Assembly: GCF_009762795.1 (NCBI RefSeq)
Contig: NZ_CP046400.1
Location: 2,333,501-2,397,500 of the forward strand
From: Pseudodesulfovibrio cashew
Lineage (GTDB): Bacteria > Desulfobacterota > Desulfovibrionia > Desulfovibrionales > Desulfovibrionaceae
Direction of reading: 5' to 3'
DNA length: 64,000 bases
Positions 11,260 through 52,463 of the stretch are shown here, one piece after another. The position numbers were made by a program, and so were the translations under genes. The notes under the pieces were generated by a model that worked only from the letters and a program-made list of their open reading frames with translations, did no database searches and had not been told where the DNA came from. Each line of letters opens with the position of its first letter. Position 1 is the first letter of the stretch.

Positions 11260-11418
11260 TACGACTCCATAGAAATAACAGGTTGAACAAGCATGATACA
11301 ACAATCGGTATTTGCTATCAGAATGCGAAGACGCTTTCAATTGTTCAATCAAAATGCAGCCTCATGTTAGAACGATTGCACAGTCAGCAAGGAGAGCGAT
11401 CGTCCTACATTCAGGAAG

Positions 11419-34894: not shown

Positions 34895-36286
34895 TCAGCG
34901 TTTGTTCTTCGTGGGGATGCCCGCCAGGCCGAGGTGGCGGTAGATACTGGGAACGCTCAGGCCCGAGAGGCGGCTGGCCCGGGCGATGTCGAAGTCGCAG
35001 ATGTCCATGAGCTGTTGGAAATAGGCCTGGTCGCGCATGGCCTTGTAGTCCTGGTAGGACTGGATGGGGCCGTCAGTGGCCTGCGGCGTCCGTGGGGGTT
35101 GGCGTTTGGGCTTTGCCTGGTCAAGGTAGGAAACGCGGATATGTCCTGGCAGGTGCTTTGGGTAGATGGTCGGCTCCTTGCCTGCGGCGATGACCGCCGC
35201 CTCCATGACGTGTCCCAGTTCGCGCACGTTGCCGGGCCAGGCGTAGGCCGTGATGATCCTGGCGATCTGTTTGGAGAAGCCTTTTGCGGGCAGCCGGTAT
35301 CGGTCGCAGGCCTTGCGGGCGAAGTGCTCGGCCAGGAGCATGACGTCCTCGCCGCGCGCAGATAGCGGGGGGAGCTGAATTTCCAGGGTGCGGAGGCGGA
35401 AGAGGAGGTCGCTGCGGAAAGTCCCGGCCCGGGTCATGGCCTCCAGGTCGCGGTTGGTGGCGGCCACAAGGCGGAAGTCGCTGCCCTGTTCCCTGGCCGA
35501 TCCCACCGGGCGGAAGCGGTGCTCCTGGAGCACGCGCAGAAAGGATTTTTGCAGAGAGGGCGGGAGTTCGCCGATTTCGTCCAGGAACAGGGTGCCGCCG
35601 TCGGCTTCGGCCACCAGACCCCGGTGGTCGGAGTGCGCCCCGGTGAAGGCGCCCTTGACGTGCCCGTAGAGTACGCTCTCCAGCAGGCTCTCGGTCAGGT
35701 TGGAGCAGTCCACCACCACGAAGGCGTTGTTGTGGCGGGTGCTGTTGTTATGAATGGCTTGGGCGGTCAGTTCCTTGCCCACGCCGGTTTCGCCCAGGAT
35801 GAGGACGCTGGCTTCGCTTTCGGCGGCCCGGGCCATGAGTCCCTTGGCTCGCTCCATGGCAGGGGAATCGCCGATGAGCCCGCCGTCGTCGAAGGCGCGG
35901 GGCGGTTCATAGGCCGCGCTCTTATCCCGCCGGTAGCCCAGGGCGCTTTCCAGGGATTTCCTGAGGGTGGTCGGAGTCGCCGGTTTCTGAATGTAGTCCC
36001 AGGCTCCACTGGTCAGGGTCTCCTGCGCGCCGAAGTTGTCCTTGAGGCCGGTCAGGACGATGACCTCCGGGTTGCCGGGGGCCGCGCAGAGGGTGTTGAT
36101 GGCGGTCCGTCCGTCCCCGTCCGGCAGGCTGAGGTCCAGGTAGACCACGTCCATGCCCTCGGTGGCCCGGCGGATGCCCGAGGCGAGCCCTTCCGCCGTG
36201 GCCACTTCGTGTCCCTGGTCGGTGAAACAGCGCGAGAGGGAGCTGCGGATGAGCTCGTCGTCGTCGATGATCAGGATGCGGGCCAT
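34895..36286 (-). CDS. NtrC-family sigma-54 response regulator
   Basis: 463 residues. The receiver domain has IIDDDE and phospho-acceptor Asp51 (VYLDLSLPDGDG), Thr in VLTGLKD and Lys in IQKPATP. AAA+ domain (about 135-370): Walker A GETGVGKE, full GAFTGA loop, GGTLFLDEIGELP. The C-terminus is a Fis-type helix-turn-helix (DIARASRLSGLSVPSIYRHL). It lies 9 bases after a hybrid kinase gene on the same strand, so the two form a two-component pair. The closest plausible target is the -24/-12 promoter at 38447 in front of the divergent catabolic operon. Confidence 0.95.
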   Translation of the reverse strand: MARILIIDDDELIRSSLSRCFTDQGHEVATAEGLASGIRRATEGMDVVYLDLSLPDGDGRTAINTLCAAPGNPEVIVLTGLKDNFGAQETLTSGAWDYIQKPATPTTLRKSLESALGYRRDKSAAYEPPRAFDDGGLIGDSPAMERAKGLMARAAESEASVLILGETGVGKELTAQAIHNNSTRHNNAFVVVDCSNLTESLLESVLYGHVKGAFTGAHSDHRGLVAEADGGTLFLDEIGELPPSLQKSFLRVLQEHRFRPVGSAREQGSDFRLVAATNRDLEAMTRAGTFRSDLLFRLRTLEIQLPPLSARGEDVMLLAEHFARKACDRYRLPAKGFSKQIARIITAYAWPGNVRELGHVMEAAVIAAGKEPTIYPKHLPGHIRVSYLDQAKPKRQPPRTPQATDGPIQSYQDYKAMRDQAYFQQLMDICDFDIARASRLSGLSVPSIYRHLGLAGIPTKNKR

Positions 36287-36295
36287 TCTTCCTTC

Positions 36296-38164
36296 CTAGG
36301 CGCAGTAACGGGCTACGTTTTCCACCAGCATGCGCGGTGACATGGGTTTCATGACGAATCCGGCCACGCCGATTTCTCCGGCCTGAACCTCAAGGCTGGG
36401 GGCCACATGTCCGGTGCAGATGACGATCTTGGCCTCCCCGTCGTTTTCCAGAATGCGGGAGGCCATCTCCATGCCGGTCATGCCCGGCATGGACTGGTCG
36501 GTGAGCACCAGGTCGAACAGCCCCCTGGCGCGGAAATATTCCTTGAGTCCCTCGGCCCCGTTGTCCGCCGTGAAGACCTCGTACCCGGCGTCACGCAGCA
36601 CCCGCTGCATGGCCTGGAGCGCTCCGGAGTCGTCGTCCACCAGGAGCAGACGGCCTGTGGCGCGCGAGGACGGGCGGGCCTCTTCGGTCAGCGTCTTGGT
36701 CTCCGGCGTTTCGCAGCAGGGAAAATAGACGGTGAAAGTGGTGCCTTTGCCCGGAGTGGAGTCCACATGGATGGACCCGCCGTTGCAGCTTGCGATGGCG
36801 TGAACAACGGCCAGTCCCATGCCGGTCCCGCCGCTTTTTTTCTTGCTGGTATAGAAGGGTTCGAAAATTCGCTCGGTGATGCCGGGGTCGATGCCGTGGC
36901 CGGTGTCGGAGACCGTCACCACCACGTGGTCGCCCAACCGCAGGCCGGAGTGGGGGGCGTTTTTTTGCGATTCCAGGTGGAGGTTGTCCAGGCGGACCGA
37001 CAGGGTGCCGCCGTTCGGCATGGCCTGGACAGCGTTGCGGCAGAGGTTGAGCAGGATCTGCTGGATCTGGGCCGGGTTTGCCAGGACCCTGTCCCGCTCG
37101 GCGAGACAGTCCACCTCCAATGAGACGTGTTCCGGCAGCGACGCCTGGAGCAGAGCCAGGTTTTCCTTGGCCAGGGGGGCCAGGTGCAGTGGAGAGCGTG
37201 TGACCTCCTGTTGGCGGCTGTACTCCAGGACCTGCTCCACCAGGTCCGCCGCCTTGTACGCGGCCTTGAGCGCCTCGGCCAGTGGGGTGTCCATCTCGCT
37301 GCCCGACATCTTTCCCAGGGCGTAATCTATATTGAAGATGATCGGGACCAGGTTGTTGTTCAGGTCGTGGGCGATGCCGCCGGCCAGCACGCCGATGGCC
37401 CGCATCTTCTGGGCCTGAAACAGCTCCCGCTCAACGCGTTTGAGCTCGGTGATGTCCACACCCAGCTCCATGACCAGGGGCTCGCCGTATTCGTCCTCGA
37501 AGGGGTAGTCGTAGATGCGGAAGGTTCGCCCGGCCTCGTCGGTGAACTGCCAGTCCACGGGCTCCCCCGTGTCGAAGACCCGGAAGGTGGGGCAGTGCGG
37601 GCAGGGATCGCTTCGCCCACCGAACACCTCGTAGCATTTGCGCCCGTTGGTTTCCCCATAGAAGGCCAGGGTCTTCTTGTTGGCGTAGGCCACGGAGTAG
37701 TCGCGCCGCTGCATGTACACGAACACGGGCAGCTCGTTGATGACGTCGAAAAAGACCTTGCGGTCATGGGCCCGGCGCATCTCGATCTGGCGGCGCAGCA
37801 TACGTTCCTCGCGCAGGGCCTTTTCCAGTGGTGTCGTATCCGGCAGGGCTATCTCCACCATGACTTGCCCCTGTTCCCGCAGGGGAATGATGCGGCATTC
37901 CTTCGGGATCTCGGAGGGTGCGGCGTGGATCGGAAAGTCGAATTCCGTTGCCGTCTCGCTTACTTCCTTGAGTGCCATGTCCAGCGCCGACAGCAGGTAG
38001 GCGGGCAGAGGCAGGTCATCCAGTCGCCTTCCCTCGGCAAAGGGAGCGTCGGGCGGCAACAGGCGGCTGAAAGCGTTGTTGGCGTAGAGAACCATGGCGC
38101 TGTCATCCAACAGGGCCAGGGCGTTCCGACAGCCTTGGGCATAGGATCTGAAAAGAGATGGCAT
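36296..38164 (-). CDS. hybrid histidine kinase with PAS domains and C-terminal receiver
   Basis: 622 residues, no membrane helix, so cytosolic. Two PAS-like regions (about 10-130 and 150-260); the second includes a GRSDPCPHCPTFRV cysteine loop. The DHp box is GIAHDLNNNLVPII, the H-D-L-N-N type seen in NtrB-like kinases. The ATPase domain has NLCRNAVQAM, DTGHGIDPG and GGTGMGLAVVH. The C-terminal receiver (about 500-620) carries LLVDDDSGAL and the acceptor Asp in LTDQSMPGM. It should phosphorylate the adjacent NtrC-type regulator in response to a cytosolic signal. Confidence 0.93.
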   Translation of the reverse strand: MPSLFRSYAQGCRNALALLDDSAMVLYANNAFSRLLPPDAPFAEGRRLDDLPLPAYLLSALDMALKEVSETATEFDFPIHAAPSEIPKECRIIPLREQGQVMVEIALPDTTPLEKALREERMLRRQIEMRRAHDRKVFFDVINELPVFVYMQRRDYSVAYANKKTLAFYGETNGRKCYEVFGGRSDPCPHCPTFRVFDTGEPVDWQFTDEAGRTFRIYDYPFEDEYGEPLVMELGVDITELKRVERELFQAQKMRAIGVLAGGIAHDLNNNLVPIIFNIDYALGKMSGSEMDTPLAEALKAAYKAADLVEQVLEYSRQQEVTRSPLHLAPLAKENLALLQASLPEHVSLEVDCLAERDRVLANPAQIQQILLNLCRNAVQAMPNGGTLSVRLDNLHLESQKNAPHSGLRLGDHVVVTVSDTGHGIDPGITERIFEPFYTSKKKSGGTGMGLAVVHAIASCNGGSIHVDSTPGKGTTFTVYFPCCETPETKTLTEEARPSSRATGRLLLVDDDSGALQAMQRVLRDAGYEVFTADNGAEGLKEYFRARGLFDLVLTDQSMPGMTGMEMASRILENDGEAKIVICTGHVAPSLEVQAGEIGVAGFVMKPMSPRMLVENVARYCA

Positions 38165-38446: not shown

Positions 38447-38462
38447 TGGCACGGCGATTGTA
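38447..38462 (+). promoter_or_regulatory. sigma-54 (-24/-12) promoter of the catabolic operon
   Basis: TGGCACGGCGATTGTA: a perfect TGGCACG -24 box and, at the right distance, TTGT in place of TTGC at -12. It lies 89 bases before the first gene and next to a sigma-54 activator gene. Confidence 0.7.
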
Positions 38463-38550
38463 GATAGGGGCTGATGACATTGATGAAAAACGTTCCGTCT
38501 GATCGGGGCGTGTGATGGTCACCGAATGACAAAACATGGGGAATGTACCG

Positions 38551-39927
38551 ATGAGCCTGCCGCAAATACCCTCAATCGACAGCATCAAGAAACAAATTCG
38601 CGATAACGACATCCATTTCGTCCGTTTTGAGCAAGCGGACCTGTATGGTGTGTCCCGAAGCAAGACCGTTCCGGTCGGCTGCTTCATGGACTACATCGAA
38701 AACGGACTGAACTTCTATGGCGGCCTGCTCGGCCTCGACATCCAGTCCATGGTCCCCTCCGGGACCGGGTACGCGGAAGAGGTTCAGTACGAAGACCACT
38801 GCACCGTGCCGGATCTTTCGACCTTCAAGGTCCTGCCCTGGGTGCCCAACACCGCAAACATCACCGTCGATCCCTACTGGTACGACGGACGCCCGGCCAT
38901 GGCCTCGCCGCGCCTGCTGCTTAAGAAGATAATCGATGAGTTCGATTCCATGGGCTACATCTGCCGCCTGGGCTACGAGTTCGAGTTCTATGTGTTGGAC
39001 AAGGAGACAAAGAAGCCGGTTTACGACGGCCAGCCCATTTTCGTCACCCTGAAGAACAACTTCGACATCGAGTACACCTACGACCTGATGCGCAAGATGG
39101 ACCAGGCCGGGGTGCGGATCATCACCCAGAACTCCGAGCACGGACCGGGTCAGCAGGAGATCAATCTCTACTATCAGGATGGTCTGGCCGCCGCCGACAC
39201 CGCCTTCCTCTACAAGATGGGCGCCAAGGAGATTTCCCTCCAGCACGGCTACATCGCCACCTGGCTGACCAAGCCGTTCATCAACTCCAGCGCGTCCGGC
39301 TCCCATTTTCACATCTCCCTCATCGACAAGAAGACCGGGAAGAACGCCTTCAACGACCCCGATGCCGAATACGGCCTGTCCGACCTGGCCAAGAATTTCC
39401 TGGCCGGCCTGCTCAAGCACGCCAAGGCCAACACGATTTTCACGGCGCCGACTGTCAACTGCTACAAGCGCTATCGGGTCAACTCCTTTGCCCCGCATAC
39501 CGCCACCTGGGGCATGGAGAACCGCACCGTGGGAATCCGCCTGAAGGGCTGCCGCGGCGAGGCCACTCATTTCGAGAACCGGCTGGCATGCGGCGGGGCT
39601 AACCCCTACCTGCTGGCCCTGTCCACCCTGGCTGCCGGGCTGGAGGGCATCAAGTCTCAGCCGGACCTTGCCGCGCCCGTGGAGGACATCGCCTACGAAC
39701 GCGACGACCTGCCCCGCCTGCCGTTCACCCTGGACGAGGCTATCGAAGCCTTCGAGGCGGACACCGATCTGCACTCCGTGCTCGACCCCGAGTTCATCAA
39801 GCTGGTCCTGGCCGTGAAGAAATTCGAGGTGGAGACCGCCAAGGCCCAGTTCAAGGACTATGGCACCCCCGCCTTCAACGACCGCGTCGATCCGTGGGAG
39901 TGGGACTACTACATGGAACTGATTTAG
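38551..39927 (+). CDS. glutamine-synthetase-family ligase (gamma-glutamyl-amine synthetase-like)
   Basis: 458 residues from the ATG at 38551 (GGGGA upstream); an ATG at 38536 is possible. GS-family signatures: LGYEFEFYVLD with metal-binding Glu, EHGPGQQEI, SASGSHFHISL and MENRTVGIRL with catalytic Arg, then FENRLACGGANPYL. The N-terminal beta-grasp part is short, as in PuuA-type ligases, and there is no adenylylation-site tyrosine motif. Rather than making glutamine it probably joins glutamate to an amine with ATP. First gene of a sigma-54-controlled operon with a transporter and an oxidoreductase-GATase. Confidence 0.85.
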   Translation: MSLPQIPSIDSIKKQIRDNDIHFVRFEQADLYGVSRSKTVPVGCFMDYIENGLNFYGGLLGLDIQSMVPSGTGYAEEVQYEDHCTVPDLSTFKVLPWVPNTANITVDPYWYDGRPAMASPRLLLKKIIDEFDSMGYICRLGYEFEFYVLDKETKKPVYDGQPIFVTLKNNFDIEYTYDLMRKMDQAGVRIITQNSEHGPGQQEINLYYQDGLAAADTAFLYKMGAKEISLQHGYIATWLTKPFINSSASGSHFHISLIDKKTGKNAFNDPDAEYGLSDLAKNFLAGLLKHAKANTIFTAPTVNCYKRYRVNSFAPHTATWGMENRTVGIRLKGCRGEATHFENRLACGGANPYLLALSTLAAGLEGIKSQPDLAAPVEDIAYERDDLPRLPFTLDEAIEAFEADTDLHSVLDPEFIKLVLAVKKFEVETAKAQFKDYGTPAFNDRVDPWEWDYYMELI

Positions 39928-40010
39928 GCACGGTACCTCCGAGCCGGGAAGGGGGCGGGAGCTTGGCTGCCGTCTCCTTCCCGCACGAGTTCACGCAAGG
40001 ATACAAGAAC

Positions 40011-41108
40011 ATGAGCACCATTCCAGTTATTCAGCTGTCCGGCACCTCCTATGAGATGGGCCGCATTCACGGCGAGGCCCTCGCGGACCAGATTGCCGAG
40101 TTCGTTGCTACCGTCACCGAGGTGCATCAGGCCAACAACGCCTCCCTCAGGGTGGCCAAGGACGCGCTGGAAACCTTCTGCAACAAGAATCTGGGCTTTC
40201 TGGAGAAGTTTTCCCCGGAGCTGGTCGAGGAGATGCGCGGCATCGCCGATGGTGCCGGGGTTTCCTTCAAGGAAATCCTCTACCTCAATTCCTTTTTGGA
40301 ACTTGAGGATCTGCGCGCTCCCGGCGTGGGGGCGAAGGTCCTGCCCGACTCCCTGTGGGGCTGCACCACTTTCAACGTCACCCCCGAAGCCGGGGAAGGC
40401 GGACGCGCCTACATCGGACAGACCTACGACATGGAGAAGTACTACGAAAAATTTCTCTGCCTGCTGCGCATCGCGCCCGAGAACGGCCCGGCGGCGCTCG
40501 TTATCTCCTTTGCGGGCATCGTCGGGCTGGTCGGCCTGAACACCGCAGGCGTGGGTGCGGTGATCAACAAAGTTACGGCCACCGACGCCCGCCCCGGCGT
40601 GATCTATCCCTTCATCATGCGCAAGGCCCTCGGCTCTGAACGCATCGGTGACGCACTGGGCGCGGCTATCTTTTCGCCCCGCGCCTCGGGCATCAACTAC
40701 CAGTTTGCCGGAAGCGGGGTCGCCTTCTGCGCCGAGACCTCCGCGACCTATTACCAACTGCTGGAGATCGACGGGGCCATTGCCCACACCAACCACTTCG
40801 TGGGGCGGGACATGCGCGGCTTCGAGACGCCCAACTGGCTGAGCCACGGCGGGTCCATGGTCCGCAAGCAGGTGGCCGACAAGTTTTTGAAGAGCAACGC
40901 CGGGTCGTTGAATCCGGAGAAGCTCAAGGAGTTGACCCGCGACCACACCAACCACCCCCGTTGCATCTGCGCGCACGGATTTCCGGGCGAGGACCCGAAG
41001 ACCGCCTTTCACACCGTGTTCGCGGTGATCATGGATCCGGAGGCCGGGTGGATGGAGCTGTGCAAGGGCAACCCCTGCGAAAACGGATATGAGCGCCACT
41101 GCCTCTAG
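40011..41108 (+). CDS. C45-family N-terminal-nucleophile amidohydrolase/acyltransferase
   Basis: 365 residues from the ATG at 40011. The order YEMGRIHGEALADQI near the start, EMRGIADGAGVSFKEILYLN, then GCTTFNV with candidate nucleophile Cys118, and AYIGQTYDM is that of the acyl-CoA:6-aminopenicillanate acyltransferase family. Such proteins cleave themselves before the cysteine to expose the nucleophile, then cut or form amide bonds. There is no signal peptide, so it works in the cytosol on an intermediate of the pathway. It follows the ligase gene by 83 bases. Confidence 0.85.
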   Translation: MSTIPVIQLSGTSYEMGRIHGEALADQIAEFVATVTEVHQANNASLRVAKDALETFCNKNLGFLEKFSPELVEEMRGIADGAGVSFKEILYLNSFLELEDLRAPGVGAKVLPDSLWGCTTFNVTPEAGEGGRAYIGQTYDMEKYYEKFLCLLRIAPENGPAALVISFAGIVGLVGLNTAGVGAVINKVTATDARPGVIYPFIMRKALGSERIGDALGAAIFSPRASGINYQFAGSGVAFCAETSATYYQLLEIDGAIAHTNHFVGRDMRGFETPNWLSHGGSMVRKQVADKFLKSNAGSLNPEKLKELTRDHTNHPRCICAHGFPGEDPKTAFHTVFAVIMDPEAGWMELCKGNPCENGYERHCL

Positions 41109-41170
41109 TGGCGGCTGAGATACAGGGTAGCTTGTTGAAATTTTAAACAATTTAATACGAGAGGTGAGAG

Positions 41171-42739
41171 ATGAAAACCAAGGACAACATGGTTGAGAAA
41201 ACCCTGAAAGAGTACGATGCCGGCGGGCTGACCCGCCGCTCCTTCCTGAAGCGCATGGGCGCGCTGGGCGTTGCCGCTGCCGTGGCCAACGCCGTGGCCA
41301 TCTCGCCCCTGGGCGCTCTGGAGGCCTGGGCCTCCATTCAGGGCCCCGAGGAGCGTGCCTGGGAACTGGCCAAGGTCGCTGCGGCCAAGGCCAAGAAGAA
41401 GACCCTGACCCTGCTCATTCCCACCGGTTCCATCGGCAACATGACCCCCTACGTGGACAAGTGGAAAAACGAGCTGGGCATCACCCTCGAGTTCATTGAG
41501 GAGCCCGACGAGGTCATCCACACCAAGGGCATGCAGGAAGCCGTGGCCAAGACCGGCCGCTACGACGTGATGATGCCCACCGCCATGTCCTACCCGGACT
41601 GGATCGACTCCGGCGTCATCTACGACCTGACCGACTGGACCGAGAAGTACGATCCCGAGCTGTTCAACAAGGACTACGGCGTTGTCTTCCCGGCCAGCCA
41701 CCATGCCCAGCTTTACAACGGGCGCGTGGCCGGTCTGCTCAACGACGGCGACCAGATCACCCTGCTGTGCCGCAAGGATTATCTTGAGGATTCCGCCAAG
41801 GCCAAGGCCTTCGAGGACAAGTTCGGCCGCAAGCTCGCCGTTCCCGACACCTGGAAGGAATACTATGAGCTCGCCTCCTTCATGCATGACCCGGCCAACG
41901 GTTTTTACGGCTCTCTGGAGTACCGCTCCCCGTATTACGTCAAGTGGATGTTCATGCAGCGGCTCGTGTCCAAGGGCATGCTCTATTTCGACGGCGAGAT
42001 GAACCCGACCTTCAACTCCGACGAAGGCGTCGAGGCCCTGGAAGACATGCTCGCCATGAACGAGTTCCTGCACCCGGACGCCTTCTCCTTCACCTGGTCC
42101 TCCAACTACAACGCCTTCGGTCGCGGCGAAGGTTTCATGAACATCGTCTGGCCCTCGGGCTTCAAGTACTCCAAAGCCCCGTCCACCGGTCCGGCCACCA
42201 CCGGCAACATCGCCGCCACGGTCATGCCCGCCGACTATACCAAGGACGGCACCAAGATCTACGCGGGCCTGTTCTGCTGGGGTTACGGCTACGCGGTCTC
42301 CAAGTACTCCGAGAATCCGGAGCTCTCCTACGCCTACGCGCAGTGGATGACCTCCCCGACCATCGGCGCGGACGCCATCCCGTACCTGGGCGGCTACTCC
42401 GATCCGTACCGCGTCAACCATATGCTCAAGCCCACCAAGCGGCTGCTGGACACCTACTCCCCCGAGTACCTCCAGACCCTGTACGATAACATGGTCAACA
42501 CCGTGCCCGACTTCTGCCTGCCCGGCGGCTTCGAGTACCAGGACGCCCTGGACAAGGAAGTGCATGCCTGCATGACCGGCTCCAAGAAGCCCAAGGAGGC
42601 GCTGGACCGCGCCGCGCACAAGTTCGAGCGCATCACACGCCGCATCGGCAAGGATAAGGTCAAGAAGTCCTGGCTGTCCCTGGCCAAGAACCTGGCCGAG
42701 CCCATCAAGAAGGCCACCGGCGCCGATCAGTGGAAATAA
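41171..42739 (+). CDS. Tat-exported ABC transporter solute-binding protein
   Basis: 522 residues. A twin-arginine signal (LTRRSFLKRMG at about 20-30) is followed by a hydrophobic stretch and cleavage near AWA. The mature protein is a large family-1 type binding protein: KTLTLLIPTGS, NELGITLEFIEEPDEV, RYDVMMPTAM, a GRGEGFMNIVWPSG region and KYSENPELSYAYAQWM. Its size and its two permeases plus two ATPases recall the rhizobial glycerol importer GlpSTPQV. Tat export implies folding or cofactor binding before export. Ligand unknown. Confidence 0.9.
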   Translation: MKTKDNMVEKTLKEYDAGGLTRRSFLKRMGALGVAAAVANAVAISPLGALEAWASIQGPEERAWELAKVAAAKAKKKTLTLLIPTGSIGNMTPYVDKWKNELGITLEFIEEPDEVIHTKGMQEAVAKTGRYDVMMPTAMSYPDWIDSGVIYDLTDWTEKYDPELFNKDYGVVFPASHHAQLYNGRVAGLLNDGDQITLLCRKDYLEDSAKAKAFEDKFGRKLAVPDTWKEYYELASFMHDPANGFYGSLEYRSPYYVKWMFMQRLVSKGMLYFDGEMNPTFNSDEGVEALEDMLAMNEFLHPDAFSFTWSSNYNAFGRGEGFMNIVWPSGFKYSKAPSTGPATTGNIAATVMPADYTKDGTKIYAGLFCWGYGYAVSKYSENPELSYAYAQWMTSPTIGADAIPYLGGYSDPYRVNHMLKPTKRLLDTYSPEYLQTLYDNMVNTVPDFCLPGGFEYQDALDKEVHACMTGSKKPKEALDRAAHKFERITRRIGKDKVKKSWLSLAKNLAEPIKKATGADQWK

Positions 42740-42802
42740 CCTACGCATAACCAACCTGAGCCGGTCCGGGGCGGACGCCCCGGACCGGCGGGGATTTATA
42801 TC

Positions 42803-43732
42803 GTGACACAGGCTGCCATCAGCACATCGCCGACCCGCAAGGGACTGAGCAACAAGACCATCGCCCGCATCTTCACGGTGCCGGGCCAGGTGGTCTCCCT
42901 GCTCGTCCTGGTCATGCCGCTTCTCGTGGCGCTCTATATGAGCTTTACCGACTGGTCGCCCACGCGCGGCTCCCTCTTCGACGCCGGTTTCGTGGGCTTC
43001 GACAACTACAGCGAGCTGCTCATCTGGGACACCCGCTTCATTTACGCGGTCATCCGGACCTTCCTGATCTCGACCATCTGCCTGAGCCTGGAGTTCTCCT
43101 TCGGTCTCGGGCTGGCCGTCCTGTTCATGCGCAAGTTCCGGGGGAAGTCCTTTTTCTTCTCCGCGTTCCTGACGCCCATGATGATCCTGCCCGTGGTGGT
43201 GGGGTACATCTTCTGGATGCTTTTCCAGTCCAACGGGCCCATCAACCAGGTGCTGGAGCTCGCCTTCGGAGCAGAGGCCATGATGGAATGGTTCAAGTCC
43301 GCGCCTCCGGCCATCTTTGCGGTGATCATCACCGAGGTGTGGCATTGGACGCCGCTCTTTTTCCTCATCCTGCTCTCCGGGCTCAACTCCGTGCCGGAGA
43401 ACCCGGTGCGCGCCGCCGTCATCCTGGGAGCCAATCCGCGGCAGGTGTTCTGGCGGGTGGTCATGCCCACCCTCAAGCCGGTGATCATCGTCGCCTTCGT
43501 CATCCGGGCCATGGAAGTGATCAAGCTTTTTGACGAGGTCTTCATGCTCACCCGCGGCGGGCCGGGCTCCTCCACGGAAACCATCAGCCTGTACATCTAC
43601 AAGCTGGCCTTCAACGACTTCCAGCTCGCCTACGGTGCGGCTGCGGCCTTCCTGGTCCTCGTGGGATCTCTCCTGCTGGTCCACATGCTGCTCGCACCGG
43701 TTCGCGACCAACTCCTGGAGGGCGACAAGTAA
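42803..43732 (+). CDS. ABC transporter permease, MalF/UgpA type
   Basis: 309 residues from a GTG at 42803 with GGGGA upstream. Six membrane helices are visible, beginning about residue 20-45. The EAA loop that docks the ATPase reads NPVRAAVILGANPRQVFWRVVMPTLKP, split by family spacing, about residues 195-220. It forms the channel with the next permease, whose start overlaps its stop (TAATG). Confidence 0.93.
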   Translation: MTQAAISTSPTRKGLSNKTIARIFTVPGQVVSLLVLVMPLLVALYMSFTDWSPTRGSLFDAGFVGFDNYSELLIWDTRFIYAVIRTFLISTICLSLEFSFGLGLAVLFMRKFRGKSFFFSAFLTPMMILPVVVGYIFWMLFQSNGPINQVLELAFGAEAMMEWFKSAPPAIFAVIITEVWHWTPLFFLILLSGLNSVPENPVRAAVILGANPRQVFWRVVMPTLKPVIIVAFVIRAMEVIKLFDEVFMLTRGGPGSSTETISLYIYKLAFNDFQLAYGAAAAFLVLVGSLLLVHMLLAPVRDQLLEGDK

Positions 43733-44592
43733 TGATGACCAAGAAACTTTCCCCCTTGCAGACCGTGATCATGGGCATCGCCCTGATCCTGGTCCTCTTC
43801 CCCGTCTTCTGGATTCTGATGACCGCCATCAAGCCGCCCACCGACTGGAACGCTTCCCCGGCCATCTGGGTTCCGTCGGAGCCGACCCTGGTCAACTTCC
43901 AGACCCTGTTCGACCCCGACGCCCTGGGCAAATATGGTGTGGGCGGCGTGAGTCAGCCCGCTACCAAGGCGGTGTTCGGCTCCATCCTGGCCACCTTCAT
44001 CGCCACCACTCTGTCCGTGGTCATCGGCCTGTTCTCGGCCATAGGCATCTCCCGCTACGGGAACAACTCCAAGTCCACGCCGCTAATCATCCTGTCCGGG
44101 CGCATGTTTCCCCCGGCGGCCATCGCGGTGCCATTCGTGATCATCTTCTCGAATATCGGGCTTATCGACAGCTATACCGGGCTCATCGCCATCTACGTGG
44201 CCGTGACTTTGCCGTTCTCCACCTGGATGTTGAAGAGCTTCGTGGACGACCTGCCTCGCGAGATCGAGGAGGCGGCCATGATTGATGGACGAAGCAAGCT
44301 CATGGCGCATCTGACCGTGACCATCCCGCTTATCAAGGGCGGGCTGTTCGCCACGACCATGTTCATCTTCATCCTCAACTGGTCGGAGTTCATGTTCGCC
44401 CTGGTGCTGTCCTACACCAACGTCAGCACCATCCCCGTACAGCTCGCCAAATACGTGACCGCCACGGCGGGTACACTCTACGGCGTGCAGGCCGCGCTGG
44501 CCGTGCTGGCCATGATCCCGCTGGTCATCGTCGGCTATCTCATCCAAGGCCACCTTGCCCGTGGCATGACTTTCGGAGCGATCAAGCAATGA
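43732..44592 (+). CDS. ABC transporter permease, MalG/UgpE type
   Basis: 286 residues. Six helices; N-terminal QTVIMGIALILVLFPVFWIL, TAIKPPTDW loop, then the EAA docking loop LPREIEEAAMIDGRSKLMAH (about 180-200) and a final helix with PLVIVGYLIQGHL. Its start overlaps the previous stop and its stop overlaps the next start, showing tight translational coupling through the transporter genes. Confidence 0.94.
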   Translation: MMTKKLSPLQTVIMGIALILVLFPVFWILMTAIKPPTDWNASPAIWVPSEPTLVNFQTLFDPDALGKYGVGGVSQPATKAVFGSILATFIATTLSVVIGLFSAIGISRYGNNSKSTPLIILSGRMFPPAAIAVPFVIIFSNIGLIDSYTGLIAIYVAVTLPFSTWMLKSFVDDLPREIEEAAMIDGRSKLMAHLTVTIPLIKGGLFATTMFIFILNWSEFMFALVLSYTNVSTIPVQLAKYVTATAGTLYGVQAALAVLAMIPLVIVGYLIQGHLARGMTFGAIKQ

Positions 44593-45692
44593 GTAGACCC
44601 AAGCTGGAACTGGTCAAGCTGAGAAAGGAATACGGTGACGACGTCATCGCGGTGGACGACATCGACCTGGCTGTGGAGGCCGGGGAGACCGTGGCCCTGC
44701 TCGGTTCCTCCGGGTGCGGCAAGTCCACCACATTGAACATGATCGTCGGCCTGGAGCAGCCCACGGCGGGCGACATTCAGATTGACGGGGCAACGGTGGT
44801 CACCACCCCGGCAGGCAAGCGCAACGTGGGGCTGGTATTCCAGGACTACGCGGTCTTTACCCACATGACCGTGCGCAAGAACCTCGCCTTCGGCCTGGAG
44901 ATCAGGGGCAAGTACATCCTTGAGATCAACCGCGCCGTGGAGGAAGTAGCCGAGCTGCTGGGCATGACCGACAAGCTCGATGTCAGCGTCAAGGAGTTGG
45001 GAGGCTCCGAACTCCAGCGCGTGGCCATCGGCAGGACCCTGGTCACCAAACCGGAGATCCTGCTCCTGGACGAGCCGCTATCCAACCTGGAGGCCGAGGC
45101 CCGCCTTGCCATGCGCCGGGAGCTGCGCCGTCTTCAGAGCGAGATCGGCCTGACCATCATCTACGTCACCCATGATCAGGTGGAGGCGCTCTCCCTTGCC
45201 GACCGTATCGCGGTCATGAACGCAGGGCGCATCCTTCAGGTTGAGGAGACGTCGGTGATTTTCGACAAGCCTGACCATACCTTTGTGGCCGGATTCCTGG
45301 GCTCGCCGCCCATGAATCTGATGCGCGGAAAATTTGCCGCCGGGCCGGGAGGGGTGCGCTTCGAGAAGGACGCCTTCCAGCTTTCGATCGGTCCCGGACA
45401 GGCTGCGCCCTCCGGCTATTACACCGTGGGTATCCGCCCCGAGGCCCTGAGTCTCTCGATCAATGATGCGCCAGATCTGACTGGGCGGATCGTGAACGTG
45501 GAGCCGCGCGGACCCGAGGCCGTGGTCACCGTGGGCGTGGGCAACGAACATCTCAAGTTGGTCGCACCGCCCGCGCAGACTCTGCGAACCGGCGACTCCG
45601 TGGGGCTGGATGTGGATTTTGATTCCCTGGTCTTTTTCGGCGGGGACAGCAACCGCCGGGTGGAACTGGCCGTGGCCGGGAGGGTATTCTGA
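44589..45692 (+). CDS. ABC transporter ATPase 1 (CUT1/UgpC type) with altered signature motif
   Basis: 367 residues. Walker A GSSGCGKST (39-47), Q-loop VFQDYAVF with Q85, Walker B LLLDEP (D161, E162) and switch His195 in VTHDQVEA are canonical. The signature motif is LGGSE (137-141) instead of LSGGQ, and the D-loop reads SNLE instead of SNLD. A C-terminal TOBE-type regulatory part follows (about 240-367). The changed motifs lie on the face contributed to the partner's site. Next gene begins at its stop. Confidence 0.93.
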   Translation: MSRPKLELVKLRKEYGDDVIAVDDIDLAVEAGETVALLGSSGCGKSTTLNMIVGLEQPTAGDIQIDGATVVTTPAGKRNVGLVFQDYAVFTHMTVRKNLAFGLEIRGKYILEINRAVEEVAELLGMTDKLDVSVKELGGSELQRVAIGRTLVTKPEILLLDEPLSNLEAEARLAMRRELRRLQSEIGLTIIYVTHDQVEALSLADRIAVMNAGRILQVEETSVIFDKPDHTFVAGFLGSPPMNLMRGKFAAGPGGVRFEKDAFQLSIGPGQAAPSGYYTVGIRPEALSLSINDAPDLTGRIVNVEPRGPEAVVTVGVGNEHLKLVAPPAQTLRTGDSVGLDVDFDSLVFFGGDSNRRVELAVAGRVF

Positions 45693-46807
45693 TGAGTGTG
45701 CAAACGGAAACCGGCGTCGTCCTTCACGTGGACGCCGTCTCCAAGCGGTTCGGAAGCAACCAGGCGCTCTCCGGAGTTGATTTCACGGTGCCTGAGGCGT
45801 CGCTGACCGTCATTCTGGGCCCCGCCGGGGCGGGCAAGACGACCATCCTGCGGACCATTGCCGGGCTGGAGATGCCTGACGAGGGGCGCGTCATCCTCGG
45901 AGGCGAGGACGTGGGAAGTTGGGAACCGCGCCATCGCAACGTGGCCATGATCTTCGACAACCTGGCCCTGTATCCGAACAAGAACGGCTACGACAACATT
46001 GCCTCGCCCCTGGTCATCAAGGGCGAAAGCGATGAGACCATCCGCGAGCGGGTGGACGCCATCGCCGCGACTTTGCAGATATCCCATGTTCTTGGTCGGT
46101 TGCCCAAGACCATGAGCGGCGGAGAGAAGCAGCGCGTGGCCCTGGGCCGCGCCCTGATCCGCACGCCGCAGCTGTTCCTCCTCGACGAGCCCCTGTCCAG
46201 CCTTGACGCCAAGCTCAGGGTGGAGCTTAGGGCAGAACTGCGGCGCATGCAGCGGGACCACGGCTACACTTTTCTGCTGGCCACGCCGGACTACCACGAG
46301 GCGCTGGCCGTTGCCGACACCGTGATTATGCTCAACAAGGGCAGGGTGGTGCAGGTGGACAGGCCCCAGGTGGTCTACGACGACCCCGCCGACCGGGACA
46401 CCGCGATCTTCGTGGGCGCGCCGCAGATCAATCTGCTGAAAAGCACGCATCTGCCGAACTCAGGCGAGATGCTTATCGAGTTGGCCGGGGTGACTCTGCG
46501 GGGCCCCGCCCACCTGGTCGGTGCGCTCAAGGGTACGGAAGGATCATTCGAGCTGGGCATCCGTCCCGAAAATCTGTTTCTTGGCGACGCCGGAGAGAGC
46601 CCGATCCAGGGCAAGCTTGCAGACATTGAGCCCCTGGGGCCCAAATCCGTGGCCACGGTGGCCGTCAAGGACGAGGAGTTTCGGGTGCTCATTGACAGCA
46701 AGGCGGTTCCTTCACTCGCGCTGGGGCAGTCTATCGGCATCGGGTTGACCAACGAGGAGCGGATGCTCGCCTTTGATCTCGAAACGGGACTGCGGTTGCG
46801 GGCATGA
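45692..46807 (+). CDS. ABC transporter ATPase 2 with degenerate Q-loop and switch histidine
   Basis: 371 residues. Walker A GPAGAGKTT (43-51), signature MSGGE (141-145), Walker B FLLDEP and D-loop SSLD are normal. The Q-loop has Asp89 where Gln is expected (MIFDNLAL), and the switch position is Pro199 (ATPDYHEA) where ATPase 1 has His195. It therefore supplies a good signature motif but a poor nucleotide site: the complement of ATPase 1. C-terminal TOBE-like part present. It overlaps the next gene by 4 bases. Confidence 0.93.
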   Translation: MSVQTETGVVLHVDAVSKRFGSNQALSGVDFTVPEASLTVILGPAGAGKTTILRTIAGLEMPDEGRVILGGEDVGSWEPRHRNVAMIFDNLALYPNKNGYDNIASPLVIKGESDETIRERVDAIAATLQISHVLGRLPKTMSGGEKQRVALGRALIRTPQLFLLDEPLSSLDAKLRVELRAELRRMQRDHGYTFLLATPDYHEALAVADTVIMLNKGRVVQVDRPQVVYDDPADRDTAIFVGAPQINLLKSTHLPNSGEMLIELAGVTLRGPAHLVGALKGTEGSFELGIRPENLFLGDAGESPIQGKLADIEPLGPKSVATVAVKDEEFRVLIDSKAVPSLALGQSIGIGLTNEERMLAFDLETGLRLRA

Positions 46808-47787
46808 TCAACCTCTTCGTCACCTACCGCTGTAACCTGGCCTGCTCCTACTGCTTCGCCAGGGAGCTGCACGCGGATTTTTCCGAGGACCTGGACGAGG
46901 CCCGGTTCACCCGCCTGCTGGGCTGGATGCGCGGCTCGTCGATCCCTGCCGCGGCCTTCATTGGTGGGGAGCCGACCCTGCATCCCGGCCTGGCGGACAT
47001 GGTCCGGCGGACCGCGGAGAGCGGTATTTCCGTCGTCTTGTTCACCAACGGCGTATTTCCCGGCGGGCTGCTGGACGAGCTGCTACCGTACGTGTCCAAT
47101 TTCGTGGTCAACTACAACGACCCGTCATTGTATACGCAGTCACAACGCGACAGGCTTCACGGCAACCTGGACTACATTGCCGAGTCCGACTCCCGGCTGA
47201 CCTTCTCCAAGAACTTTTCCAGCCGGTACTGCGAATATGATTACCTGCTGGAGGGGGCCGAGGCCTACGGGGTCAGGTCCATCCGGTACGACATCTCCCG
47301 CCCAAGCATCTCGGCGTCCAACGATCACTTCACCGACGACGACACCCGGCGGATCATCTCCCACATCGTTCGTTTCGTGAAGGCGTGCGAGGGGCGGGGC
47401 ATTCGCACGGGGCTTGATTGCAGCGTCCGGTTATGTGACCTTGACCTCGCCGACAGGAATTACCTTGAGCGGGTGTCCATGAAGTTCTCCGGCGTCTGCC
47501 ATCCCTCCATCGACATCCACCCGGATTTGTCCGCGTCCTACTGCCTGCCCATGCGGGACGTGACCGTGCCGGACGTGACCGAATTCGCGAGTCAGGACGC
47601 GCTGATGTGGCACTTTGCCGAGCTGGTCAGGCCCATCCGGCAGGCGAACGTGTCCAAGGATTGCCTGGACTGCAAGGACTTCATGCGGCGGTGCCAGGGC
47701 GGATGCATGGCGTTGCGGCGCACCGAGCGCCCCGCGAAGGGGGGCGCAAAACCTCTCGACAAGGCAGAGAGCGAAACACATGACTAA
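46804..47787 (+). CDS. radical SAM protein with C-terminal cysteine cluster
   Basis: 327 residues. The [4Fe-4S]/SAM site is CNLACSYC (Cys10, 14, 17), followed by IGGEPTLHPG and TNGVFPGG. The C-terminal part carries further cysteines (CHPSI, SYCLPM, CLDCKDFMRRCQGGC), a SPASM/twitch-like auxiliary cluster region. Proteins of this layout modify peptides or mature enzymes. Start and stop overlap both neighbours, so it is made together with the ABC ATPase and the molybdoenzyme. It may mature that enzyme or act on the substrate itself. Confidence 0.88.
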   Translation: MINLFVTYRCNLACSYCFARELHADFSEDLDEARFTRLLGWMRGSSIPAAAFIGGEPTLHPGLADMVRRTAESGISVVLFTNGVFPGGLLDELLPYVSNFVVNYNDPSLYTQSQRDRLHGNLDYIAESDSRLTFSKNFSSRYCEYDYLLEGAEAYGVRSIRYDISRPSISASNDHFTDDDTRRIISHIVRFVKACEGRGIRTGLDCSVRLCDLDLADRNYLERVSMKFSGVCHPSIDIHPDLSASYCLPMRDVTVPDVTEFASQDALMWHFAELVRPIRQANVSKDCLDCKDFMRRCQGGCMALRRTERPAKGGAKPLDKAESETHD

Positions 47788-50458
47788 GACCAGGATCATC
47801 ACCAGCTGCACCCGGGACTGCCCCAATACCTGCGGCCTCGTGGCCACCGTCGAGGACGGCCGTCTGGTCGGTCTGACCGGCAACCCGGACCACCCGCTGA
47901 CCAGCGGGGTGGCCTGCCACAAGACGGGTAAATATATCCGCCGGGTGTACAGCCCGGAGCGCATCACCCACCCCATGGTCCGCAAGAACGGGCAGTGGGA
48001 GCGCGTCTCCTGGGACGAGGCCCTGGACCTGGTGGCCGATACCATGAAGACCGTCTGCGAGGAGTCGGGGCCCGAGGCCATCCTCTATTACCAGGGCTAC
48101 GGCGAGCGCACCGCGCTCAAGCTGCTGAACAAGTATTTCTTCAATCTGCTGGGCGGAGCCACGACCATGTACGGCTCGCTCTGCGGCGGGGCCGGGCAGG
48201 GCTCCCAGAACCTGGATTTCGGGGAGCGCGTCTCTCACGACCCCCTGGACCACCTCAACAGCAACTCCATCGTCCTCTGGGCGCGCAATCCTGTCTCCAC
48301 CAACATCAGCCTGGTGCCGATCATCCGCAAGGTCAAGAAGCGGGGCGGCAAGGTCATCGTCATCGACCCGGCCAAGAGCAAGTCAGTAGCCCTGGCCGAC
48401 CATCACATCAAGCCCAGGCCGGGCGGGGACGGCTATCTGGCCATGGCAGCCACCAAGCTCATTCTGGCCGCTGGTGCCGAGGACCGCGAATTTCTGGAGA
48501 AGTACAGCGAAGGGGTCGAGGAGTATCTGGCCATATTGGAGCGCTACTCCGTTGAGGAACTGTGTTCCCTGGCAGGGGTGCCCACCAGCGATGCGCTCAT
48601 TCTGGCCAATACCTTCATGAAGCATGGGCCCACCTCCACTCTGCTGGGGTGGGGGTTGCACCGTTACGAGTACGCCCACCACTCCATCCGGCCCATCGAC
48701 GCGCTGGGTGCCGTCAGCGGAAACATCGGCGTACCCGGCGGCGGCGTCAGTCAGGGGTTCGAGGAGTACGGACCCTACGATTCGCAGTGGTGGGGCGACG
48801 GCCTCAATCCGCCCAGGCGGCAATTCCTCATCCCCAAGGTGGGCGAGGAGATCCTGAACGCCAAAAACCCTGCCGTGCGGCTGATCTACGTGACCGCGGG
48901 CAACCCCCTGTGCATGGCGCCCAATTCCTCCAGGATCGCCGAAGCGTTCGGACGGGCCGAACTGGTGGTCTATTCCGGCCATTTCATGGACGACACCGCC
49001 GACCTGGCGGACGTGTTCCTGCCAGCCACCACCTTCCTGGAGGAAGACGACGTGGTGGCCAGCTATGGACATAACTACGTGGGGCCGGTGAACAGGGCCA
49101 TCGAACCCGTGGGGGAATGCAAGTCAGAATTTCACATGTTTTATGAGTTGGCGTCCCGCTTCCCCTTTGCCGATTGGTACCGGCGTCCCGTGGACGAGTG
49201 GCTGCAGCGTATCTGCTCCCCCATCTGGCAGCAGGGCGGTGATCTGGAGAGCCTGCGTCGGGAAGCGTTCCGGCTTGACGCGCCCATGGTTCCCTATGAG
49301 GACAAGACTTTTCCCACGGAGAGCGGCCGGTTCCGGTTCATGACCGAATTCGATCCGGAGCATACGGCCGGGGACAACGCCTATCCGTACAAGCTGCTGA
49401 CCATCGCACCGCACGGGACCATCTGCTCGGAGCGGACCGTTGCCGAGCATGAGCCGTTGCCCGTGGTTACCCTCAATGCGCAGGAGGCGGAGCGGGGCGG
49501 CATGCGGGACGGCATGATCGTGCTGGTCAAGAGCCCCGTGGGCGAGGTTCGCGCGCGCCTTCGGGCCGACGCGGACATGCGCCGGGACGTGCTCGTGGCT
49601 GAACGTGGCGGGTGGACCAAGGCCGGACACGGCCTCAACCTGCTGACCCTTGATATGGCGAGCAAGGTGGGAAACGGCACCCCGTTTTATGAGACGTCCG
49701 TGGCCGTGTCCCCCGAGCCCGAGGTCAAGGCCCGCATCCTGCTGGTGCAGAACAGCGGGCGCGCGCCGGGCGGCACCTTCCACAAGGCGTTGGAGCGGGG
49801 AGGCGCCTCCCTGATGCTGGTGCGGCCAGCGGACGGGGAATCGTTGCCGGAGCTGCCGGACGCGTTCGACGGACTCGTCGTCCTCGGCGGACCGCAGCAC
49901 GCCTTTGACGACGATGCCTCACCCTATTTCCCCGCGTTGATGCGTCTCATGCGCGAGTTCGACGAGGCCGGAAAACCCGTGGCGGGCATCTGTCTGGGAG
50001 CCCAACTGCTGGCCCGGGCACACGGAGCCAGGACCTGGGGCATGGACGCCCTGGAGTTCGGGTTCGTGCGCCACGCGCTCACCCCGGAAGGGGAGGCGGA
50101 CCCTCTTTTCATGGGGATCGGCGAGCTGCCCGGCCTGATGGAGTTCCACGAGGATTCCTTTGACCTGCCCGACGGCGCAGGCCTGCTTGTCCAAGGCGAT
50201 GCCTGCGCCAACCAGTGCTTCCGGGTCGGCAGGGTGTCCTATGGTTTCCAGTTCCATCTGGAGGTTGATTCCGCCGTTGTCGAGAACTGGATCAACCTGT
50301 TCAAGCGGGGCGAGATCGACACCTATGCGGAATACAAGAAACTCTACGGCCCCGCTTTCTTCGAGGCCATGGAAGCGGACCTGCCGTTGCTGGTGGCCCG
50401 CTCCGAGGACTTCTGCAACCGGGTCGCCGCCAACTGGCTGAAGCTGGTTGTCGGGTAA
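47780..50458 (+). CDS. molybdopterin oxidoreductase fused to a class I glutamine amidotransferase domain
   Basis: 892 residues from the ATG at 47780. The first about 640 residues are a DMSO-reductase-family catalytic chain: N-terminal [4Fe-4S] cysteines (CTRDCPNTCG ... GVACHK), then YGSLCGGAGQG with Cys135 where the Mo ligand usually lies, NPVSTNISLVPIIRK, GWGLHRYEYAHHSIRP and a C-terminal molybdopterin dinucleotide domain (VVTLNAQEAERGGM). From about 650 comes a GATase class I domain with nucleophile Cys738 (GICLGAQLL) and His826, Glu828 (GFQFHLEVD): triad complete. No Tat signal, so cytosolic. This fusion is unusual; the GATase may hydrolyse a gamma-glutamyl product or supply ammonia. Confidence 0.88.
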   Translation: MTKTRIITSCTRDCPNTCGLVATVEDGRLVGLTGNPDHPLTSGVACHKTGKYIRRVYSPERITHPMVRKNGQWERVSWDEALDLVADTMKTVCEESGPEAILYYQGYGERTALKLLNKYFFNLLGGATTMYGSLCGGAGQGSQNLDFGERVSHDPLDHLNSNSIVLWARNPVSTNISLVPIIRKVKKRGGKVIVIDPAKSKSVALADHHIKPRPGGDGYLAMAATKLILAAGAEDREFLEKYSEGVEEYLAILERYSVEELCSLAGVPTSDALILANTFMKHGPTSTLLGWGLHRYEYAHHSIRPIDALGAVSGNIGVPGGGVSQGFEEYGPYDSQWWGDGLNPPRRQFLIPKVGEEILNAKNPAVRLIYVTAGNPLCMAPNSSRIAEAFGRAELVVYSGHFMDDTADLADVFLPATTFLEEDDVVASYGHNYVGPVNRAIEPVGECKSEFHMFYELASRFPFADWYRRPVDEWLQRICSPIWQQGGDLESLRREAFRLDAPMVPYEDKTFPTESGRFRFMTEFDPEHTAGDNAYPYKLLTIAPHGTICSERTVAEHEPLPVVTLNAQEAERGGMRDGMIVLVKSPVGEVRARLRADADMRRDVLVAERGGWTKAGHGLNLLTLDMASKVGNGTPFYETSVAVSPEPEVKARILLVQNSGRAPGGTFHKALERGGASLMLVRPADGESLPELPDAFDGLVVLGGPQHAFDDDASPYFPALMRLMREFDEAGKPVAGICLGAQLLARAHGARTWGMDALEFGFVRHALTPEGEADPLFMGIGELPGLMEFHEDSFDLPDGAGLLVQGDACANQCFRVGRVSYGFQFHLEVDSAVVENWINLFKRGEIDTYAEYKKLYGPAFFEAMEADLPLLVARSEDFCNRVAANWLKLVVG

Positions 50459-51749: not shown

Positions 51750-52463
51750 TCAGAAGCGAAGCCGGACGCCGATCACGAACTGGACGTCGTCGAAGTCCGC
51801 GCCTTCCTCCTTGGCGTAGTCGGCCGTCTTGCCGTAGAGCCGGTTCCAGTTGATCCCGACATAAGGCGCGAATTCCCGCCGTATCTCATAGCGCAGGCGC
51901 AGCCCCAGTTCGGTCTCCGAGATGCCGGAGCCAGTCCTGGTGGCGGGATCGTTCTTGCCGTATGCGTTGAGTTCGAACTCGGGGACCAGGACCAGCCGTT
52001 GGGTGAACATGAACTCGTATTCGGTCTTGAAACGGAACGAGGTCCGTCCGTCCTCGCCGAGGAAGAGCGCCGTATCCACGTCGAAATAGTAGGGTGCGGT
52101 ACCCATGAAACCCACTGCGAGCCAGTTGCGGTCAGGCATGCCCGGTTCCTGGTAGGTGTCGCGGCGCACGCCGGCCTGGAGGTCCCAGTTGGGGTCCACG
52201 GCCCTACTGTAGAGTGCCTGGAATTCGGCCTCCTCGATCTTTTGGTCGCGGTATTCGCCCTCGGTCTTGAACCACAGTTTGTTCAGGTCCTTCCCTATCC
52301 AGGCGTCGGCGTCCCAGAAGATCGGGTTGGAGCCGTCCGCCGTTCGCATTTCAAGCCTGTCCACGATCAGCGCGGCCAGCAGGGGGTCGTCCTCCATTCC
52401 GCCCGCGCGGGCTACACCCGTCAGGGTCAGCAGGAGAAGCATGGTTAGTGCCAGTTTCCTCAT
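51750..52463 (-). CDS. copB: outer-membrane copper resistance protein CopB
   Basis: 237 residues from the ATG at 52463, which overlaps the copA stop (ATGA). A Sec signal peptide (cleavage after ARA) is followed by a beta-barrel chain with alternating strands: LWFKTEGEYRDQKIEEAE, LQALYSRAVDPNWDLQAGVR, SFRFKTEYEFMFTQRLVL and, at the end, VQFVIGVRLRF closing in aromatic Phe. It lacks the Met-rich N-terminus of some CopB proteins. It works with CopA in copper sequestration or detoxification. Confidence 0.9.
   Translation of the reverse strand: MRKLALTMLLLLTLTGVARAGGMEDDPLLAALIVDRLEMRTADGSNPIFWDADAWIGKDLNKLWFKTEGEYRDQKIEEAEFQALYSRAVDPNWDLQAGVRRDTYQEPGMPDRNWLAVGFMGTAPYYFDVDTALFLGEDGRTSFRFKTEYEFMFTQRLVLVPEFELNAYGKNDPATRTGSGISETELGLRLRYEIRREFAPYVGINWNRLYGKTADYAKEEGADFDDVQFVIGVRLRF

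Follow-up and report, generated by a model that had tools for sequence, protein, structure and literature searches.

The Puu putrescine pathway (PuuABCD) caps, oxidises and then uncaps its substrate, and employs flavin and NAD enzymes. Genes for a glutamine synthetase-like (GS-like) enzyme and a glutamine amidotransferase (GATase) are paired in the isopropylamine route, where oxidation is carried out by a cytochrome P450 (PMC6776027), and in the Streptomyces ethanolamine route, which also works by capping (PMC6529630), while GS-like and GAT-like enzymes serve the aniline and 1-naphthylamine routes (PMC11335346). The published gamma-glutamyl capping routes that we met employ oxygenases, P450 or NAD-type dehydrogenases. 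Separately, a DMSOR + GuaA1 (COG0518) fusion appears as a row of Table 4 in a 2018 paper, where it is reported as new (PMC6147048). Here we analyse a gene of Pseudodesulfovibrio cashew that joins a Mo/W oxidoreductase domain of the dimethyl sulfoxide (DMSO) reductase superfamily to a class I GATase. It lies in a 64,000-nt window of contig NZ_CP046400.1, and all coordinates below are positions in this window. The initial annotation knew of no characterised enzyme with this fusion, which holds as far as we have searched, but the domain pair itself had already been printed in that Table 4; full-text searches of open-licence papers returned no paper for the fusion with gamma-glutamyl terms and, for the operon parts, one that is unrelated by its title. 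We propose, as an evenly balanced reading of the sequence data, that the fusion could be a bifunctional enzyme at the end of an anaerobic pathway that works by gamma-glutamylation of a small amine or amide.

The gene (47780-50458, + strand) translates into 892 residues with zero internal stops. Along the chain Pfam places, in this order, Molybdop_Fe4S4 (residues 8-58), Molybdopterin (61-459, 1.2e-40), Molydop_binding (554-637) and GATase PF00117 (676-831, 1.2e-11). The translation and the Pfam matches bear out the single DMSO-reductase-family plus class I GATase chain of the initial annotation, and the cluster ligands C10, C14, C18 and C46 and the triad C738/H826/E828 are at the positions it had claimed. 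The two parts are:

47780..49714, + strand: Mo/W bis-pyranopterin guanine dinucleotide (bis-PGD) oxidoreductase domain, residues 1-645 (Pfam; Cys135 in 96/96 relatives; fold search FdhH/Nap/DMSOR)
49724..50455, + strand: class I GATase domain (residues 649-892), probably a hydrolase of gamma-glutamyl compounds (PF00117; triad C738 H826 E828)

Full-length, stop-free copies were found in 19 of the 119 sampled genomes of the family (its own included; the 18 others are 56-70% identical), and for this reason the fusion is not an artefact: a frameshift, a misassembly and two separate genes are all ruled out. One further copy, in genome G055, is interrupted by a contig end, and other genomes of the family have a Mo protein without GATase, 47-52% identical. 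In the class sample 68 of 297 genomes gave a match at 1e-150, fused or not. Of 345 genomes sampled from the phylum, 3 matched at 1e-200, all within the family. The fusion is also present elsewhere in the order, as well as in delta proteobacterium NaphS2. Among named records the closest, L100 (74% identical), is a Pseudodesulfovibrio metagenome-assembled genome (MAG), and its contig is the same as that of the same-genus genome G193. No signal peptide is visible by eye at the N-terminus (MTKTRIITSCTRDC...), so that the protein should be cytoplasmic. The predicted structural model, with a predicted local distance difference test (pLDDT) score of 74.5 that falls below 50 near the Mo site, for instance in the stretches 132-155 and 327-341, yields no distance between the Mo and GATase sites.

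The fusion is the last of nine same-strand genes spanning 38536 to 50458. Genes overlap by 1-8 bases at five of the junctions, with 8 bases shared between the radical S-adenosylmethionine (SAM) gene and the fusion. The eight preceding genes are:

38536..39927, + strand: GS-like ligase, putatively forming gamma-glutamyl organic amides (Gln-synt_C 1.2e-82; ammonia-site Asp to Tyr, flap Glu to Phe)
40008..41108, + strand: C45 autoproteolytic N-terminal nucleophile (Ntn) hydrolase, candidate amide hydrolase (NF040521 227 bits, cutoff 85)
41171..42739, + strand: solute-binding protein of the twin-arginine translocation (Tat) type (SBP_bac_1, TAT_signal_seq)
42803..43732, + strand: ATP-binding cassette (ABC) permease A
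43732..44592, + strand: ABC permease B
44589..45692, + strand: ABC ATPase 1
45692..46807, + strand: ABC ATPase 2
46804..47787, + strand: radical SAM enzyme with SPASM-like C-terminal cysteines (Radical_SAM 2.9e-10)

The nucleophile motif GC[TS] of the C45 hydrolase is present in 25/25 aligned sequences. The radical SAM protein has CX3CX2C in 22 of 23 (the remaining one is a fragment) and eight further cysteines in 22 or 23 of the 23, a motif that is SPASM-like. The ABC binding protein was found in 14 of the 119 family genomes, and all 14 have the fusion (the G055 copy being cut by the contig end).

The ligase departs from true GS at two places. In all 30 sequences of the alignment (those of the window and of Rhizobium among them, and some genomes represented by two loci) there is Tyr at the place of GS Asp50 and Phe, Cys or Tyr at that of the flap Glu. 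According to PMC11335346, the catalytic Asp50' and a residue of the Glu flap, named Glu357, have been lost from the 'GoaS' amine glutamylases, none of which is reported there to use ammonium. The same pattern, a Gln-synt_C fold with Asp50 and a flap Glu lost, is found in 30/30 sequences here, the match of the flap numbering being unsure. The ligase loses the Glu of the GYEAP flap and keeps that of an IEVR-like motif; we take the former to be residue 327 and the latter 357. Its best match in the PDB is NpaA1 (8WWU), a 1-naphthylamine glutamylase, with 205 bits. Residues and gene context together support a ligase of the organic-amine type and, for the GATase, the hydrolase class; for the Mo step it is the context that speaks. 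The pairing of GS-like and GATase genes supports amine capping here, being the known signature of the isopropylamine, ethanolamine, aniline and 1-naphthylamine routes.

In the scheme that we propose the substrate would be taken up by the ABC transporter or, in acetogens, through an AmiS/UreI amide channel, and the C45 hydrolase would convert the amide into the free amine, which the GS-like ligase, spending ATP, would cap with the gamma-carboxyl of glutamate. The Cys-ligated Mo/W domain would oxidise or otherwise transform the capped molecule, the radical SAM protein may oxidise the substrate or take part in this, or may mature an enzyme, and the C-terminal GATase domain would finally hydrolyse the gamma-glutamyl amide to glutamate and product. 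Gene content, gene order, conservation and residue states are read directly from the sequences; from them we infer every reaction, the order of the steps and the sharing of one molecule by both domains. That the Mo domain acts on the gamma-glutamylated intermediate can be argued about equally well either way. Acetylene hydratase is an example of a non-redox enzyme, and the Mo step may likewise be non-redox, or use ferredoxin, since there is no electron-transfer gene in the operon.

The Mo/W domain belongs to the bis-PGD (DMSO reductase) superfamily, with the Fe4S4, Molybdopterin and dinucleotide-binding domains in order and all above Pfam cutoffs. Its best relatives in the PDB are formate dehydrogenase H and the bis-PGD family, and the PDB fold search (FdhH/Nap/DMSOR matches) confirms the superfamily and nothing beyond. 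In an alignment of 96 sequences, taken without the L002 row, Cys135 at the metal-ligand place (equivalent to FdhH Sec140) is invariant (96/96), as are Ser324-Gln-Gly-Phe327 and Glu329, and the cluster cysteines 10, 14, 18 and 46 are retained wherever the alignment has a residue. The position after Cys135 is Gly in 88 and Ser in 8 of the sequences and never the His of formate dehydrogenases, so by the active-site pair we are dealing with a bis-PGD member that is not a formate dehydrogenase. The alignment to 7bkb and FdhH likewise does not show the Sec/Cys-His pair, and the formate dehydrogenase model TIGR01591 gives 220 bits vs a cutoff of 666. At the place of FdhH Arg333, which we take to be the catalytic arginine under that numbering, Phe327 is read (Phe in 96/96) in an ungapped extension of the alignment made by eye.

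To relate the GATase to the rest of the operon we took the 46 family and class genomes with a Mo protein at least 55% identical to that of the window and scored 43 of them, dropping G055 (contig end), G252 and G300 (partial). Operon status was assigned to 20, by the binding protein at 1e-100 for 13 and by the ligase at 1e-100 for 7; absence in all 23 others is by the ligase at 1e-100, in a search that covered 30 of the 46 and would miss a more distant ligase. The triads of G056, G223, G264 and G193 were read from identical contigs and that of G244 from L117 (nearly equal match coordinates), and the count includes the incomplete genomes G280 (82%) and G264 (86%). With the operon, the triad is intact in 20/20 genomes. 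Without it, 12 of the 23 have it intact, in 3 it is dead (Cys to Arg and Glu to Gly in G104, Cys to Ser in G193, His to Arg in G010) and in 8 the domain is absent (G145, G280 and six Desulfomicrobium-group genomes). A naive Fisher test gives p = 2.6e-4, an underestimate, since each relative enters the test on its own. Independence does not hold among the 43 genomes, the six of the Desulfomicrobium group amounting to one loss; counted as events there are at least six losses of the GATase, zero of them in operon genomes. The GATase-less copies of the Desulfomicrobium group, L092 and L115 look like losses because they fall inside the fused clade of the tree, with support of 0.84-0.99 at several nodes around them and only 0.15-0.4 at others, some of them deeper. 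This pattern, with the Mo domain retained, suggests a tie between the GATase and the ligase pathway, and a separate use for the Mo domain.

The coupling is not strict. The expectation that the fusion would always stand alongside the GS-like ligase failed in 12 genomes with an intact fusion and no ligase homologue at 1e-100, by which strict coupling is ruled out. In a genome without the ligase, a partial radical SAM open reading frame (ORF) upstream of an intact fusion (L083:12316-12948) looks like a decaying operon.

The same copies bear on an alternative in which the Mo domain and the GATase act on different molecules and the fusion merely co-produces them. The GATase-less Mo proteins inside the fused clade would fit it, as would G104, G193 and G010, where the GATase is dead and the Mo-site residues are retained, but a GATase-fold gene or domain follows the Mo protein in three forms (fused, C26 and NF006562, the latter two described below), and we regard this alternative as unlikely.

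In acetogens and some others the hydrolase is encoded separately. Acetobacterium paludosum (L133) and a second genome of its family (L173) carry, in this order, the ligase, C45, an AmiS/UreI channel, radical SAM, the Mo protein, a Peptidase_C26 and a GGACT-like gene. The order of L133 is found in Anaerocolumna (L157), plus a MobA-like gene ahead of the GGACT gene, and as far as C26 in a Coriobacteriales MAG (L150), and the short contig L146 shows radical SAM, Mo and C26 (the last assigned by clustering). Pfam was run on the L133 gene set (AmiS_UreI 2e-51; Peptidase_C26 PF07722 208 bits, 1.8e-61; GGACT 5e-11), and the C26 of the other loci are homologues at 47-77% identity to that of L133 (L173 77%, L157 59%, L150 47%). 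The L133 C26 scores 112 bits with the PuuD model (cutoff 266), and directly after it, in L133 and L173, comes the GGACT gene, a gamma-glutamyl cyclotransferase (AIG2-like). The ligase was found in 2 of 391 genomes of the class of the Acetobacterium genome, in 2 of 40 of its family and in 1 of 120 of the family of Anaerocolumna. Pelotomaculum (L129) and a Desulfotomaculaceae locus (L134) have the Mo gene and then a separate GATase of another subfamily (NF006562 286 bits, cutoff 205, in L129; the L134 protein is 74% identical to it); both were rejected as fusions, there being two adjacent genes in each. There are therefore three kinds of GATase-fold gene or domain right after the Mo protein. Directly upstream of these Mo and GATase genes lie pyrrolysine genes (L129:4649-9621, L134:2472-7478); in L129, PylSc, PylB and PylC are over the NCBIfam cutoffs, an MtaA-like gene is below cutoff and PylD was guessed by eye, and the L134 region has members of the same clusters.

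A plasmid of Rhizobium sp. ACO-34A (CP021374.1) carries the same transporter (binding protein 80%, permeases 78%, ATPases 62 and 54% identical). After it come a GATase in a gene of its own (37% over 190 residues, with a C-H-E triad), a GS-like ligase (40% identical), a PF01425 amidase, a 2Fe-2S protein and glyA. The 31.6-kb stretch has no homologue of the Mo protein. The Rhizobium amidase, the AmiS/UreI channel of the acetogens and the C45 hydrolase here point to an amide as the probable incoming compound. The relatives of the transporter that we examined gave no substrate name. Ethanolamine is a guess that we considered because of glyA in the Rhizobium operon and because the capping of ethanolamine is proposed, in PMC6529630, to end in glycine. 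On a plasmid of Thermomicrobium roseum (L166:4873-10344) a GS-like gene (41% identical) lies near an annotated aldehyde ferredoxin oxidoreductase, MoaD/ThiS and RidA.

The Cys-His-Glu triad of the class I GATase fold is intact in the window protein. The fused GATase scores 45.1 with PF00117 and 20.5 bits (E 4.5e-4) with Peptidase_C26 (PF07722), equal to the cutoff, and the PuuD model NF008471 is absent among its 12 NCBIfam matches. The initial annotation had left two options, a PuuD-like gamma-glutamyl hydrolysis or a glutaminase feeding ammonia to the Mo site. The former is favoured and the latter found no support, since the ligase is without the ammonia-site Asp and the flap Glu of true GS, since a separate PuuD-type Peptidase_C26 gene trails the core genes in acetogens and others, since the Rhizobium plasmid pairs the transporter with GATase and GS-like genes and has no Mo gene within 31.6 kb, and since the triad is intact in all 20 genomes with the operon and dead or absent in 11 of 23 genomes without it. 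From its sequence and setting, the GATase domain is thus quite probably a gamma-glutamyl amide hydrolase. Such a hydrolase might also work as a control valve that returns the gamma-glutamylated substrate to the amine, as said of AtdA2, rather than releasing the product. PMC11335346 describes a GAT-like enzyme that hydrolyses gamma-glutamylanilide and holds it at a proper level, and finds NpaA2 dispensable for the conversion; yet the fusion to a Mo enzyme and the terminal place in the operon fit product release, and the PuuD-type C26 genes in that place suggest an end step, so we consider a valve improbable. A glutaminase whose ammonia aminates the Mo-site product has in its favour the PF00117 fold, the complete triad and the fact that GATase-synthase fusions generally work by ammonia delivery, but the organic-amine type of the ligase, the separate C26 gene in the same place and the Rhizobium transporter and GATase with no Mo homologue nearby make it very improbable.

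Several observations weigh against release of a product by the fusion at the end of a capping pathway. The fused GATase is under cutoff in all 12 NCBIfam models matched, and as a PDB match of the ligase NpaA1 is barely ahead of a methanogen true GS (205 vs 200 bits), so that this score alone says little on the type of ligase. The Mo protein occurs without GATase in many genomes and must therefore serve some function for which GATase and ligase are both dispensable. Five loci of Deltaproteobacteria MAGs (L147, L149, L151, L152 and L155, the last with C45 and Mo as its only core genes) have core genes, and five GATase probes found no homologue in the stretches of 8-22 kb searched. Of the 23 genomes that lack a close ligase homologue, 12 still have an intact triad, and the ratio of GATase to Mo divergence has a median of 1.33 outside the operon (15 copies, 3 dead included) vs 1.31 for 21 operon copies (the comparison started from 28 operon and 17 no-operon loci, of which 21 and 15 gave distinct rows for both parts). 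A general speed-up of the GATase after loss of the operon was rejected on these medians; the dead triads L044 and L100 have ratios of 1.91 and 1.92. Finally, an obvious electron-transfer subunit is not among the genes of the operon.

Upstream of the ligase gene are two divergent regulatory genes and a possible promoter:

34895..36286, - strand: NtrC-type sigma-54 response regulator (Pfam Sigma54_activat 2e-62, Response_reg)
36296..38164, - strand: PAS hybrid histidine kinase (HATPase_c, PAS, Response_reg)
38447..38461, + strand: candidate sigma-54 promoter TGGCACGGCGATTGT with one mismatch, lying 89 bp ahead of the ligase gene

The divergent NtrC-type regulator is conserved at many, not all, operon loci. 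The promoter candidate has the form TGGCAC-N5-TTGT, and of 20 distinct loci with the fused operon 19 have a site with at most two mismatches 75-98 bp upstream of the ligase start, 14 of these sites having one mismatch (L106 and L112 are left out of the count; L103, L104, L109 and L110 duplicate other loci); the non-fused operon has it in 0/7 loci. When two mismatches are allowed, the window holds no excess of the pattern (53 occurrences vs 71.9 expected), and the sites of L049, L093 and L144 are equalled in 6.5-9.5% of shuffles. The -12 element of sigma-54 promoters is usually GC and the place reads mostly GT or GA here, so that the site is a candidate only.

In NaphS2 (L144:2801-19295) the transporter is encoded on the other strand, downstream of ligase, C45, radical SAM and fusion. 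Two operons (L045:4994-5668 and L047 near 10917-11420) contain a second, separate GATase besides the fused one, its gene standing between those of the C45 hydrolase and the binding protein; PF00117 matched the one tested, that of L045. A multicopper-oxidase-like ORF with a long Met-rich stretch was read by eye at 52460-54382 (- strand) of the window.

Somewhat more tentatively than for the fusion itself, we suggest that sulfate reducers and acetogens may share an oxygen-independent gamma-glutamylation route, in which radical SAM and Mo/W enzymes would take the part that P450s, Rieske oxygenases or flavin oxidases play in air, and that the Desulfovibrionales may have fused the transforming and uncapping steps. 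If true, an anaerobic Mo/W version would add to the chemistry of the gamma-glutamyl capping enzymes, and the route would be a carbon or nitrogen source for these organisms. Ligase and hydrolase can each be assayed separately from the components that are sensitive to oxygen.

Compared with known systems, the domain pair of PMC6147048 consists of the same two fused families as here, and section 8 of that paper, where DMSOR + GuaA1 is only a table row, mentions neither an organism nor an operon, a triad or a function for it. Formate dehydrogenase H shares the [4Fe-4S] cluster and the Cys/Sec-type ligand place with the fusion, which differs in having Gly or Ser, not His, after the ligand and, in the reading by eye, perhaps Phe at the place of Arg333. 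The Puu pathway has a C26 hydrolase, as do the acetogen versions, whereas the GATase of the window is a PF00117 rather than a C26 match. AtdA1A2 and NpaA1A2 combine GS-like and GAT-like proteins as here, NpaA1 being the best PDB match of the ligase, but their oxidant is a Rieske dioxygenase and their substrates are aromatic. In the Ipu system (IpuC and amidotransferase, plasmids of P. aurescens TC1) a GS-like ligase shares its cluster with two GATase genes, of which, judged by alignment, one is PF00117-like and the other C26-like; the system has no fusion and no Mo or radical SAM gene annotated in 19 kb, and its oxidant is a P450.

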